Shown here: positions 7,818 to 57,399 of the stretch, in pieces | How positions within the stretch are numbered: the first letter of the stretch is position 1 | Layout of the letters: every line of letters begins with the position of its first letter | Assembly (NCBI GenBank): GCA_916610825.1 | Contig: OU744452.1 | Span: forward strand, 20,615,648 to 20,679,647 | DNA: 64,000 nt | Origin: Haliclystus octoradiatus | Taxonomy: Eukaryota > Cnidaria > Staurozoa > Stauromedusae > Haliclystidae | Reading direction: 5' to 3' | The notes under the pieces: generated by a model | Seen by the model: the letters and a program-made list of their open reading frames with translations, nothing else | Database searches by the model: none | Told to the model about the DNA's origin: nothing | Program-made: the position numbers and the translations under genes

Positions 7818-10800
7818 ATGGGAACGCGAGTTGACATGAAAGTTGTTTTGCTTGGAAAAGAATACGGAGGAAAGACTAGCATTGTTGAGCGATTTATTCA
7901 CGATCGTTTTAATGAAAATATACCCTATCAAAATGTGAGCGTTTATTTGCTTAGTAGTTTTAGGTTTTACAACAAATAATTGTTCCTTTCACTGTTTTGT
8001 TTACTAGTCCTGCGACCTGCTATAACTGTAGATCGTAGTCCATAGATTGATACATGTAGAATTAAGAATTTGAATTTACTTTTTTCTTTCAAATTACTTG
8101 GAGGCCTTTATGCGTAATTATTCAAAATGCATATCCTCTTTCCAGACAATCGGAGCAGCGTTTGGTGCAAAAGTCTTATCTGTTGATAAACAAAAGATAA
8201 CATTAGGCATCTGGGTAAGTTTTTTCTCTTTATCATCTTTTTAGTTGCCGCCCCATGTCAGCTTTTACGCCTACTTACTGTAGTAGTAGTAGTAGAGGAT
8301 AGATAATCACAAGGTGCCATCCATATACGATGCAACACAAGTCATTCTAGGAGTGACAATGATAGAAACTTGACACAGACACTGCGTGCAGACTAAGGTC
8401 AGTTCAAATTTCAGAAATCACGTATTCCAGTATTATCATCCATATCCGTTCTTAGTATACTTTACACTTACCACTCTTTCCTGTTATTTATGCCTGTTTT
8501 TTTACTTAATGTCTGTTTTCCTGTCAACTTAGCTAATCAGTCCTTTGAAAAAAAGTTTGTATAACTTAAAGGTTCTGAATAAATGATGATGATGATGATG
8601 ATGATATTTACTACACAAAGAACGCTCCACAAATGAAGGTCGGACAATCAGTGTCATGAAAATTGCTTGAAAAAGTAATTAATTAGATTACAAATTACTT
8701 TTGCTGGAAATTCAAAAATTACATTACTATAGAACTTTTTCGAAAATAGTAATTAATTACAAATTACTAATTACTTCCAGAAAAAGAAATTAATTGACAA
8801 TTACTTTGGGATATTTATCAAAACATTTATCCCTATGCTATATCATGTCAACATCATTGTAAATATAAATAATTAATATGATATGTCTAGTGATTTATCA
8901 AAGTTTGAACACCCTCGTTGATTAATTTTAAATGGAGTTAATTTCTTTTTTGAATAGGACACTGCTGGATCAGAACGTTATGAAGCAATGAGTAAAATAT
9001 ACTACCGTGGTGCTAAAGCCGCCATCATTTGTTTTGGTGAGATTAAATTAATAATAATTTTTATTATAATAATATACACAAGGCTTAAGGCATACATAAA
9101 GTGTAAAGGCTTTGCCTCATCTTTTGTCTCTTATCATAATGCTCTGTTTTAACCAACATTGGGCACTTTACATTATATGTGTATCTGAGTTTACATTCAC
9201 TATAATTATTTTTTTAATTTATTATTATAATAATATACATACAAAGGTTAGTCAAGTTTACCGTAAACGTGAATAATCTTTTTTTCATTTATACATAGCT
9301 CTACTTAAGTGTATCGAGCACTCTCTTAAATGATTTGCATATTATTCTTAATCTTATTATATTTAATATAGTACAAATATTCTAATAATATACATATAGT
9401 ATATATATACTTGATATACTCCGGCAGACCCTATAATAATATGTCAAAAATGTGTCACCTATGTTTAGTGGAAAAATTCCACATCATCTGCTCAAAAGAA
9501 GCCATATTAAATAAAAAATCTGAACTCATATCAAAATGTAGGCATGAAAATAAATATTATTTATCTAATTTCAAAGAAACAAAAACGTAGCCTTATAACA
9601 GCGCCATTTAATTAAGGAAACTAATAACAATACATGTCATTATAACTTAGTAATTGTAAAGATAAAACCATTGTAAGTATAACAATAGTTTTTCTCTTTT
9701 TTCAAATTTTTTCTCACTATTGTCAAATAAGAGTAACTGGTATATATTTTTCATTAATAGTATCTGTCTGATGATCGCATAAAGCGAAAAACTTTAAGTT
9801 ACAGAAAATGAATGCGTAGTCTTTGACTCCATTATTATTATTATTCACGCTCTGTCAAATGACATCGAGCACTGTTATTGTTATTGTTATTGTTATTGTT
9901 ATTGTTATTGTTATTATTATTATTATTATTATTATTATTATTATTATTATTATTGTTATTGTTATTGTTATTGTTATTGTTATTGTTATTGTTATTGTTA
10001 TTGTTATTGTTATTGTTATTGTTATTGTTATTATTATTATTATTATTATTATTATTATTATTATTATTATTATTATTATCAACTGCTGTTAGATACCATA
10101 TCATCATTATTATTATGACATTATATATACTTGATACATTTTTCTAACTCCACCACCAAAGATTAAAACCACTGAAATGAGCATGAAAATCGGTGTCTGT
10201 AAACTGCATACTTTTCAAATGAATTTTCTTAAATTTTAACATTTTACTGCAATCCCAGACAGGATGTTGAAGCCGTGCAATATTCGCACCGTCTATCGTC
10301 ATGTGCAGCGCTACAGGATGAGTTTAGATTGTATGGACATTTGATCTGATAGTCTGATTGTATATCACAAGACATTAATTTGTTTAAATAAATATTTTCC
10401 TGTTATATTTTTTATTTTCCAATAGAAACTTGACCTATTTTGCATAATCATGCATAATAAATAATATACTATTGTTTTCTTTACTTTGTGTTAAAAATAA
10501 TTGACAAAAATTTTTTCATGACTACCGTGTTTACCGTAGGCCTATCAATCTCAAAACAGTTCAATCTAATTACTATGATTCAAAGTGAAATCAGTCCTGT
10601 ACATGTATTGCATTAAATGTTTTATTAAATGTTTTAATTCTGCTGCGACATCAGCTTAAGGCGAGTCAAATTCGCACGTCATTTACAAGTCACACCTGTA
10701 TTATAAGTATGTAGTGAAAAACAATTCATACCTCCAGCCTCGGTTTAGTCTAGGGATGGATCACCCGTACCAAACGTATGGGGTAGGGGTTTGACTCTTA

Positions 10801-13800
10801 ATGGTCTGCATAATTACTTTTTCCTTTTTTGTTTTTATTTGACTTATTATTTCGATATATTTTTTTCCTGATAGTTTTACTCTACTTTCTTTTTACTTTT
10901 TTCAACTTTTATTTTATTATTTTATTCTTGATGATATTCTTGATTCTTCTTTATTCTTGATTCTTGAGGCGGATCAAGCCAACACTCAACACGCAATTGG
11001 ATTCTATAAAATCCCGGTTGTTTGTTTAATTTCCGTGTAATTGTATTTGACAATTTCCTTTGTAAACTCAAACTCTATATATTTGTAATTTTTTCATTTG
11101 TATTGATATACCTGATGATGCCATGAAGATATGATATGGCAAAACGTTGTGAAATCCCGTGTTTTTTATCGCTATCATTTGTTACAAATTTAATAAGCAA
11201 GAATTTATTAATTATTATATTGGTTTGATTAATTTTCTTTTCCTTTCTTTTACTTTGTTTTTTTTTTGTTTTAATTTATTTGATTTGATTTGATTTTTCT
11301 TTGATGATTTGATTGATTTGATAATTTATTCTATTGAATTTGATTTTATTTGATTTCTTTTGATTATTATATCATCCACCATGAATCCGAGCGTAGCTGA
11401 GCTATTTTGCTATCCGTACATGTCACTGTTGCGCTTTTACATAGTGCAACTCTTTCTACGCCAAAATTGACCTTGAAAATATAAAATGGTAGGCTACTGT
11501 ATTGTGGAGATTCTAGTGTCCCACTTTTTGAGAGAAAGTAAAAGAACAATATTTTATCTGAATCTTAGTTATATGGCTTCTATGTTGTTTAATGTTTAGT
11601 AAATAATCTCGCAGAAGCATTCTGAACATGCTGAAATTTTGAAATAGATTGTTGCTTTCTTCCTCACAGTAGTAAATTGCATTGATCTAGTCTTGGTATT
11701 CAAGGTTCACAGTCATAATATCATCATATTAATTAGTTTATTGTAATACAACCAATTGACTACATGTTATAAAATATTTCATTTTTCAATTACAGACTTG
11801 ACAGATGATACAAGTTTTGAACGTGCAAAATTCTGGGTAAATGAAGTTCGGGCTCACGAGGAGGTGAGATTCAAGGCATTCAGATATAAAACCGGACATC
11901 TGCATGCTGCGTTACAATTTGATTCAGGTCCTACTCAATAATCTTTTTAAATTTAGATTCTCATTTCCTTTAAATTCTGAATACTGTAGTTGAAATATTT
12001 ATTTATCAGATGTGATTTTGTCGATCAGAGATTATCTTGGACCGTTAATCGTTAAAAGTACAATGTTATGCATAAGATCGATTGTTCCAGTTGAAGAACC
12101 AATCCAGGCAATTTGAAGAGAATCCCTAGAAAAGCTGATTTCCTCATTTTCTATCAGTTCTGAAACAAAAAAATTCACCTAAAAAACTGGTTTTGCTATT
12201 TTTTTTCAGCAATTTTCAAAAAGAGTTGATATCCTCACGAGTAATGCCTGCAAGCTCAACTTTTTGGGCTTGTTGTGGGTAAATGAGTTATAAAACAGTC
12301 CTTTTTTCGATGCATCCCAATTTAAAGTTGTGTGTTTGCTTCTGTGTTTAGAATTGTAAATTGTATCTTGCTGGTACGAAAAATGATCTAATGACACAAC
12401 GTTCAATTGCGAATGAAATACATGACATTATGGACTACGCTGAATTTATCAACGCAAGTTATTACGAGACATCAAGTAAAACAGGAGAAAACATAGGTGA
12501 GGAAAAAATGGCATTAAATGCAAAGGGCTTAATGCCCCCAAAGTATGTATCAGGGAAGGGGAAGAGGGGTGAATCTGAAAATGCACTAATGGGCTTCAAT
12601 ATGTAGCATGTCTTTTTTAATTTGATGCTTGTATTTTTAATTTTATTTGTCATCTTTCATATTGCTTCATATACATGCAACCGTTATGGCATGCTCTTTA
12701 TCTAATTAAAAAAGTGTTTTATTCACAGAGGAGATCTTTCAAAGAATAGCTGATGAATTTGTGATGGGATCCAAACTACAAATGGGTAAGAGTTATGATA
12801 CAGTGAAATAGACGTAGACTAATAGAAGCAGGCCAGCAAACAAATCTGAGAATATTTGACCATTATAGACAGGAGATCTTTTCATTCGATATAGGATTTG
12901 ATTCATTGTGATAAGTACTACATAAATGAGTTCATTAATTTAACTTTTCTAGCAGAGCCCTCAAAATTAATTCTAAAATATCACGAAGGTTTTCTGCGAT
13001 CTGATTGGTCGAAAGAGCGTGCATGAAATCCTAGGGTAAAACATGGCTCCGAAAACCGGGAAAAACCGCAAGCTTCAAAAAAGTTTGATCTGTGATAAAA
13101 TACAGAATTTATAACTTTTTGATAACAATCCAATAAATATCTCAATAATGGCTACGATTTACAAAACGACATTTAGCTCAAGATTTATTTATTTATTGAA
13201 AAGCGTGGTAAATGAGTTATTGGTCGTGTAACATGCAAAATAAAAACACAGAACGAAAGACAATTATAGGCTACGCTGTTTCAAGGTAAACCTAAAATTT
13301 AAATAACAATTACTGCATTAATTTTCTAAAGAACTATGTTCTTGTATATGTCTTTCTTTATTCGACAAAATCTATCTTGTTGTGGGATTCTCTTCATGCT
13401 TGGTTTATGAATTGAAATTGAATTTTAAATTGTGAATTCATGAATTGAAAATTCGCCGTCGAATGAGATTCCGACATTTGTTTTATTTTAGAAAAGGGTT
13501 ACCACATGCTTGCAAATGTTTGTATTCATATTTTCTAAACTCGAAAATGTTGGGAGACACTCGGGAAGCTAAAAATCACTCGCTCGGAGCTCGTGATTTT
13601 TTAGCGCTTCACTCGTGTCTCCCAACATTTTCTCGTTTAGTAAATATGAATACAAACATGGCAAGTATGTGGTAACCCTTTATTCATATGCTTGGTGTTT
13701 TGACCTTGCTTCTTTGAATTCACAAAATTACGAGAAACAAAAGAGTCCAAGACCTTGAAGATCATATGTCCCTGTGTAATAAAGTCTCCATGCCTGGGTG

Positions 13801-57236: not shown

Positions 57237-57355
57237 TGCACCAATTTACAAAAGATATTTAGCTCAAGATGTTTATAACTTATTTTTATTGAAAAGCGTC
57301 AAAATCGCAATGATGATATTTGATTGAAGATTGTGTATCGAATCAAATTGAATAG

Positions 57356-57399
57356 ATTGTCTGATGATCGCCAATTGGTTTGAAATTCAGAGTAACAAT
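57356..57399 (+). ncRNA. Hammerhead ribozyme-like motif 4
   Basis: Helix I ATTGT (57356-57360) pairs with ACAAT (57395-57399). CTGATGA is 57361-57367. Helix II (57368-57381) is weak (GCC/GGT). The GAA box is 57382-57384. Helix III is ATT/AGT with one GU pair, and the cleavage triplet is GTA. Confidence 0.55.

Follow-up and report, generated by a model that had tools for sequence, protein, structure and literature searches.

A 64,000-nucleotide stretch of the Haliclystus octoradiatus genome (assembly GCA_916610825.1, contig OU744452.1, positions 20,615,648 to 20,679,647, forward strand; hereafter the window) contains four hammerhead ribozyme motifs. They belong to related families of Penelope-like element (PLE), retroelements whose association with hammerheads is already known. 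The new part of our analysis concerns element copies arranged head to head elsewhere in the genome, whose joins end at two points.

Four hammerhead motifs

The original prediction placed a shared CTGATGA core at four sites, and we find it at all of them: 9768(+), 46191(+), 56157-56151(-) and 57361(+). The core consensus of type I hammerheads is CUGANGA / GAA(A) / H17. Copies 1–3 are minimal type I hammerheads from three PLE subfamilies, and copy 4 is a decayed relative.

9763..9805 (+): hammerhead copy 1, subfamily F1, minimal type I motif; helix I 9763-9767/9801-9805, core 9768-9774, helix II 9775-9778/9784-9787, box 9788-9790 (AAA), helix III 9791-9793/9797-9799, cleavage site between 9800 and 9801
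46186..46227 (+): hammerhead copy 2, subfamily F3, complete minimal motif; helix I 46186-46190/46223-46227, core 46191-46197, box 46210-46212, helix III 46213-46215/46219-46221, cleavage site between 46222 and 46223
56118..56165 (-): hammerhead copy 3, subfamily F8; strands TTGT/ACAA in helix I and TGC/GCA in helix II, cleavage site between 56126 and 56125
57353..57402 (+): hammerhead copy 4, a decayed motif; intact helix I (ATTGT/ACAAT), most of helix II broken, cleavage site between 57394 and 57395

Helix I pairs in all four copies as predicted, with TCTGT/ACAGA in copy 1, ACTGT/ACAGT in copy 2 and the strands listed above in copies 3 and 4. The predicted helix II holds in three of the four: copies 1 and 2 have CGC/GCG and copy 3 has TGC/GCA, but in copy 4 TCGCC AATT GGTTT forms at most two C-G pairs and one G.T wobble. 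Helix III is ACT/AGT in copies 1–3, as predicted, but ATT/AGT with one wobble in copy 4. The GAA box is lost in copy 1 alone, again as predicted, and copies 2–4 meet the core consensus. The AAA box of copy 1 reflects a single G12->A change at 9788, where its relatives read GCGAGAAAC; with this change copy 1 is expected to be inactive. The copy 3 motif recurs at loci L065 and L099, in the latter downstream of remnants of a PLE open reading frame (ORF). Copy 4 had no blastn match of at least 40 bases among loci L001-L028. A duplicated 60-bp unit ending in CTGATGA lies just upstream of copy 4 (57117-57236), with no covariance-model match there. Minimal PLE hammerheads have been described, in part of PMC7761336, without a tertiary contact between loops I and II.

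The motifs exceed chance expectation. A loose pattern (CTGATGA-N6..22-GAAA-N4..20-ACA) matches the window 7 times against 0.33 expected from shuffles; four matches are the copies above, and the other three are absent from the 12 matches of a covariance model at E<=5. The model scores the four copies at 55-66 bits and everything else at 17.2 bits or less; it was built from 30 genomic motifs that include copies 2–4 and exclude copy 1 but include a sister of copy 1. Rfam hammerhead models found none of the four copies at gathering thresholds or at E<=5. Genome-wide, TGTCTGATGATCGC occurs 1254 times and a second hammerhead pattern matches 1315 times, with 0 matches for either reversed control. Rfam hammerhead models miss these four window members of a motif family with thousands of copies in this genome.

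The original prediction took paired substitutions among the copies as a sign of selection on RNA structure. The four window copies alone are insufficient to carry this claim; they differ because they come from different element subfamilies. The 30 genomic motifs, 28 of them distinct, have a covariation score of 0.222, compared with 0.144+-0.012 for shuffles that ignore relatedness (0/500 as high) and at most 0.078 when partners are slid. With substitutions re-placed on a tree, the 117 motifs that pass a filter for conserved letters and helix III, a subset of 142 distinct motifs, show 6 double changes against 2.06 expected (maximum of 8 in 1000 simulations). Single pairs in this set are marginal (lowest p 0.009 uncorrected), and none is significant after correction for 14 pairs.

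Because near-identical copies dominate the 117-motif set, we chose a test on 34 representatives more than 5 differences apart, re-placing substitutions on a tree and summing 11 pairs. The tree was derived from the motifs themselves, so the test is a rough one. Paired cells number 310 against 278.8 expected (p=0.008), and the covariation is 3.02 against 1.86 (p=0.002). The signal of single pairs is modest: p=0.0025 for I.4 (C-G/T-A), p=0.013 for I.3 (T-A/C-G) and, outside the 11-pair sum, p=0.003 for II.5. Helix III is near-invariant and hence uninformative on covariation. Helices I and II covary overall against this tree-aware null, which supports the claim of selection on RNA structure. The original prediction had named a genome-wide alignment without covariation as the result that would count against it; in the reduced form of 34 representatives, covariation is present.

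The motif search preset the letters of CTGANGA. Position H17, which the search left unfixed, is A, T or C in 116/117 motifs. Core position 7, the sole core letter left free and one that is free to vary in hammerheads, is T in 104, A in 11 and G in 2. The GAA box is present in 112/117.

The Penelope-like host

The host is a PLE whose reverse transcriptase (RT) has a predicted telomerase-like fold. In the genome surveyed (262 Mb, 33 contigs), its units are about 2.5 kb long and carry an ORF of 711-713 amino acids (aa). At locus L009 direct units recur at 2525 bp spacing, the inverted arms measure 3131 bp and three 711-aa ORFs are intact; ORFs of 713 aa are present at L010 and L011. Searching the genome with the ORF gave 63 scored matches, of which 54 are stop-free. 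All 30 loci cut around the best ORF matches, some of which overlap one another within tandem arrays, have a hammerhead match at E<=0.01. A unit runs from the RT-fold ORF through the hammerhead and a conserved post-ribozyme segment to the next unit or a simple repeat. The hammerhead typically lies about 185 nt past the ORF stop codon; in tandem arrays another precedes the next ORF by about 205-210 nt (seen in L009, L011 and L082). Family FA (L079-L098) has more intact ORFs in the match list than any other; there CTGAAGA replaces CTGATGA, a change at core position 7, and the rest of the motif is full.

The element ORF has 1796 homologues but no match in Pfam, NCBIfam or PDB sequences, and a profile search of PDB sequences gave no relative (one match at E 0.98). 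Since neither sequence nor profile searches gave a relative, we folded a homologue that is 68% identical (P0001) instead; the predicted fold has pLDDT 77.5 and its best structural match is TERT. Across 30 family sequences, YRDD is invariant and FDIxxFYP nearly so, both of which we take to be RT motifs. Pfam GIY-YIG matches one of 30 family members (E 1e-5) and not the element's own ORF; a YIG..R..H pattern can be seen by eye. Tandem units with pseudo-long terminal repeats (pseudo-LTRs) and an inverted 5' copy, the arrangement of canonical PLEs, are exemplified by L009, and 133 pairs of copies lie head to head. In the window, element remnants accompany copies 1 and 2.

9414..9587 (+): C-terminal 58 residues of the PLE ORF, F1, 5'-truncated; tblastn 93% to residues 656-713 of the L011 713-aa ORF
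9421-9873 (+): copy 1 element fragment; blastn 98% to L010, L011 and L013
9753 (+): initiator-like (Inr-like) A (TTTTTC^A), putative pseudo-LTR transcription start, by homology to the edge where head-to-head arms stop
9810..9872 (+): post-ribozyme segment GAATGCGTAGTCTTTGACTCC, (ATT)5 and the first bases of the next unit; ends at a simple repeat
45889..45996 (+): C-terminal 36 residues of the PLE ORF, F3, 5'-truncated; tblastn 89% to the F2 ORF
45890-46268 (+): copy 2 element fragment; blastn 99% to L012
46257..47565 (+): (ATT)n array, about 1.3 kb, directly 3' of copy 2

No coding remnant was found beside copy 3 or copy 4 by tblastn with PLE ORFs. By eye, copy 3 consists of the ribozyme, a little sequence upstream of it and the post-ribozyme segment, and nothing more; copy 4 is the decayed motif alone. 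Many element copies terminate in ATT or AT repeats. The (ATT)n array at copy 2 could be an insertion target or could have grown after insertion.

Ends of head-to-head joins

We located copies by the conserved post-ribozyme segment, whether or not a ribozyme was present. Genome matches number 311 for F1, 252 for F2, 766 for FA, 99 for F5, 388 for F8, 217 for F3 and 229 for F4, with reversed controls of 0 for all seven subfamilies. Pair spacings and joins rest on the places listed, about 100 per subfamily. Many copies are arranged head to head.

In F1, the upstream reach of homology from the segment was measured in 78/311 copies. It stops 50-57 bases up in 33 of these and at exactly 9 in 4; the hammerhead cleavage bond is at 9 and the A of TTTTTC^A at 57. 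A further 11 stop at 19-43, 9 at 65-156 and 5 at 2-5 (four of these five being substitutions or another subfamily's segment), while 16 reach the end of the extracted sequence. Spacings within the 133 head-to-head pairs, a count that omits one F5 pair on contig C7 repeating its neighbour, fall as follows: 0 at 0-9, 9 at 10-19, 7 at 20-59, 10 at 60-79, 5 at 80-89, 97 at 90-159 and 5 above. Spacings near twice the cleavage distance form a separate class, with 11/16 of those below 60 lying within 6 of it (p=7e-5).

The larger class of ends lies at the Inr-like A. Among the 104 arms of 52 distinct joins, 66 end within 12 bases of this A and none beyond it: 16 exactly on the A, 14 one short and 24 four short (18 of them F1). 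The join table marks L016 and L164 as duplicates, the L164 join being the L163 join with slightly different flanks, and the arm count includes four arms of L031 and L040 that were misassigned to F8 and come from another subfamily. An extra G adjoins the A in 14/17 distinct copies ending exactly there, where the element itself has C in 17/17, compared with 2/15 copies ending one base short (Fisher p=1e-4). The G in L019, L172 and L061 could belong to the partner arm or to filler; without these three the count is 11/14 (p=6e-4). Reverse transcriptases often add C opposite the mRNA cap. Given this habit and the extra G at the join, the exact ends look like cDNA run-offs at the 5' ends of capped RNAs.

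The smaller class lies at the cleavage bond. Clean exact ends there are seen in F1 (L120, both arms; L121; L135), FA (L163, L164) and F5 (L167). In F4, L183 is a perfect palindrome with a gap of 18 (9+9), computed as 10+10 since the next base matches by symmetry. The F3 join at L017 is the same as the FA join and is ambiguous there by two bases; this join, CATTCTTTACAGTAAAGAATG, recurs across 5 contigs, at 9 places in all. The F2 ends at L161 (both arms) and L057 fall one base short of the bond. L120 and L135 hold serial short units that restart at ACAG, as would be expected from repeated jumps between cut RNAs.

For F1 we took all 16 listed pairs whatever their spacing. Of 14 internal ends, 4 fall on one predefined position of 45 (p=2e-4), and by locus 3/12 do (p=0.002). 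This test omits 6/20 internal ends: at L157, L134, L127(+), L152 and L133 homology resumes further up or the segment is another subfamily's, and L150 duplicates L149. On this reading of the two end points, the class from uncut, capped RNA would be clearly larger than that from cleaved RNA.

Template RNAs, alternatives and known systems

We propose the following route. RNA polymerase II would start 15-19 nt ahead of the CTGANGA core, at the A of TTTTTC^A (in F4, TTTTTT^A), and every transcript would thus open with a hammerhead. The enzyme of the element would cut AT-rich simple repeats on both strands, and cDNA synthesis on each strand would start just 3' of the ribozyme. Synthesis of each cDNA would run off where its RNA template begins, at the 5' end, and the resulting pair of ends would be joined head to head. 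An uncut RNA would leave an end at the cap, with an extra G at the join, and a hammerhead-cut RNA an end at the first base of the helix I 3' strand. Two sense cDNAs meeting in this way would explain the inverted short arm, the long-noted palindromes and the two classes of end. Plausibly, cleavage would also strip the ribozyme from the 5' end and free unit-length RNA from tandem transcripts.

From these end positions, we consider it quite likely that capped and self-cleaved RNAs both served as templates and that the joins record both. It is also likely, though we hold this a little less firmly, that the joins form a genome-wide record of the 5' ends of template RNAs in vivo, and that the ribozyme is active in the germ line and contributes to transposition. 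If joins do preserve RNA 5' ends, three questions could be put to any PLE-bearing genome with no RNA from the animal: how frequently cutting by the ribozyme preceded copying, whether the products of cut and uncut templates differ, and what gives rise to the head-to-head palindromes.

Several observations weigh against this reading. Arms in the cleavage class are few. An added G is seen in 0/10 tabulated cleavage-site arms, but its absence is informative in 4/10, as the other six abut the partner arm. Outside F1, most short joins were chosen for short spacing, which favours cleavage-site ends, and one short F3 pair on contig C1 was left out of the joins analysed. Among short joins, L160, L162, L168 and L184 do not end cleanly at the cleavage site and L180-L182 either are ambiguous or stop at other points, and some internal ends (L044, L127, L171) are indels or substitutions instead of breaks. 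Mixed joins are rarer than independent arms predict. The evidence for an RT fold comes from a 68%-identical homologue, and the elements' own ORFs have no Pfam family match. In PAc, the Poseidon PLE of the lizard Anolis carolinensis, insertion in vitro does not need the hammerhead, cleavage was seen only when protein was present, and RNA-seq showed no ends at the hammerhead cleavage site (PMC11167929).

The alternative that survives best, though we think it unlikely, is that the hammerhead fold blocks the reverse transcriptase, so that the minor class of ends marks polymerase pausing and not cleaved RNA. Some ends do lie scattered at offsets of -10 to -2, a short way downstream of the cleavage site, which is the pattern expected from stalling or from trimming of ends. 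A stall, however, should precede copying of the helix I 3' strand, whereas the exact ends lie after it. Ends also fall at the scissile bond in three subfamilies (F1, FA, F5), in three more (F2, F3, F4) they are at most one or two bases away, and the restarts at ACAG in L120 and L135 argue the same way.

Slightly less probable again is that the helices are kept for another role, such as binding the element protein or marking the cDNA start, with self-cleavage incidental or lost. The lizard element gives this some ground, as its hammerhead is near both the inferred protein-binding region and the point where cDNA begins, and hammerhead mutants remain able to insert in vitro (PMC11167929). Against such a role stand the insertion ends at the cleavage site and the restriction of H17 to A, T or C in all but one of the 117 motifs while position 7 varies.

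That the motifs are retrozymes (short non-autonomous tandem hammerhead repeats) and not PLEs is very improbable: copies 3 and 4 are short and non-coding, but copies 1 and 2 have ORF remnants, the copy 3 motif follows PLE remnants in L099, and the units are ORF-bearing and about 2.5 kb long instead of 150-400 bp and non-coding, a result that leaves copies 3 and 4, taken singly, undecided. We give equally little credence to the view that no selection acted on the RNA and that chance, or simple descent from one DNA repeat, explains the motifs; in its favour, the copies of any one subfamily are no more than related repeats and the 117-motif set has no pair surviving correction, but this view is opposed by the window excess over shuffles, the two abundant genomic patterns with empty reversed controls, and the covariation among the 30 motifs and 34 representatives.

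The window and the loci hold further features. Reverse transcriptase, RNase H and integrase domains are encoded by each of two long ORFs (20694-25274, +; 34753-38685, -), which we presume from domain order to be Ty3-like LTR retrotransposons. An ORF at 38857-41637 (-) has an aspartyl protease, a weak RT and an integrase core; together with the zinc-knuckle ORF beside it (41520-42260, -) it makes another LTR-type retroelement. A 22-bp tandem repeat of about 17 copies (5873-6249) has weak Rfam microRNA matches far below gathering scores, and a 49-bp repeat has 7 copies at 98% (54380-54733). A distinct hammerhead-like motif (CTGATGA AGGCT..GGCCA GAAACA..TGTC, H17=C, longer helix I; L036:426(-), L049:1013(-)) occurs 4 times and is possibly a retrozyme family. 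Variant hammerheads at L036:248(+), L036:1002(-), L051:748(+) and L025:209(+) have core position 7 occupied by A or G; in the L036 variants a G-C replaces the usual U.U at the base of helix II.

PLE hammerheads were reported by Cervera and de la Pena (2014, MBE) and Lunse et al. (2017, RNA Biol), as cited in PMC7761336 and PMC7229834. According to those two articles, they share with the motifs here a minimal type I form in which helix III is short or absent, a place in the pseudo-LTRs of tandem PLEs, and numerous dispersed copies; our analysis adds the footprint of RNA 5' ends at insertion joins. A review calls the in vivo activity of these ribozymes a mystery. Metazoan retrozymes also have type I hammerheads, but unlike the elements here they are described, in portions of PMC7229834, as short non-coding units with canonical hammerheads that form loop-loop contacts.

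PAc resembles the Haliclystus elements in its tandem units, telomerase-like RT and AT-rich (ATT) targets. PAc also has a GIY-YIG endonuclease, cuts and extends both target strands, and starts cDNA inside the RNA downstream of the hammerhead (PMC11167929), traits that the elements here may share. Its hammerhead overlaps the ORF start and gave no sign of cleavage in vivo, whereas here the ribozyme lies roughly 205-210 nt before the next ORF. The dominance of uncut RNA agrees with the lizard study; the use of cut RNA goes beyond it. The Penelope families of Adineta vaga, as partly described in PMC3846280, likewise have head-to-head inverted pseudo-LTRs, palindromic joins, an optional 3' tail and a TATA/Inr-like promoter. 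Their joins were read there as self-priming on an antisense template, whereas the arms here stop at the putative capped start or the ribozyme cut, which would suit two sense cDNAs meeting.

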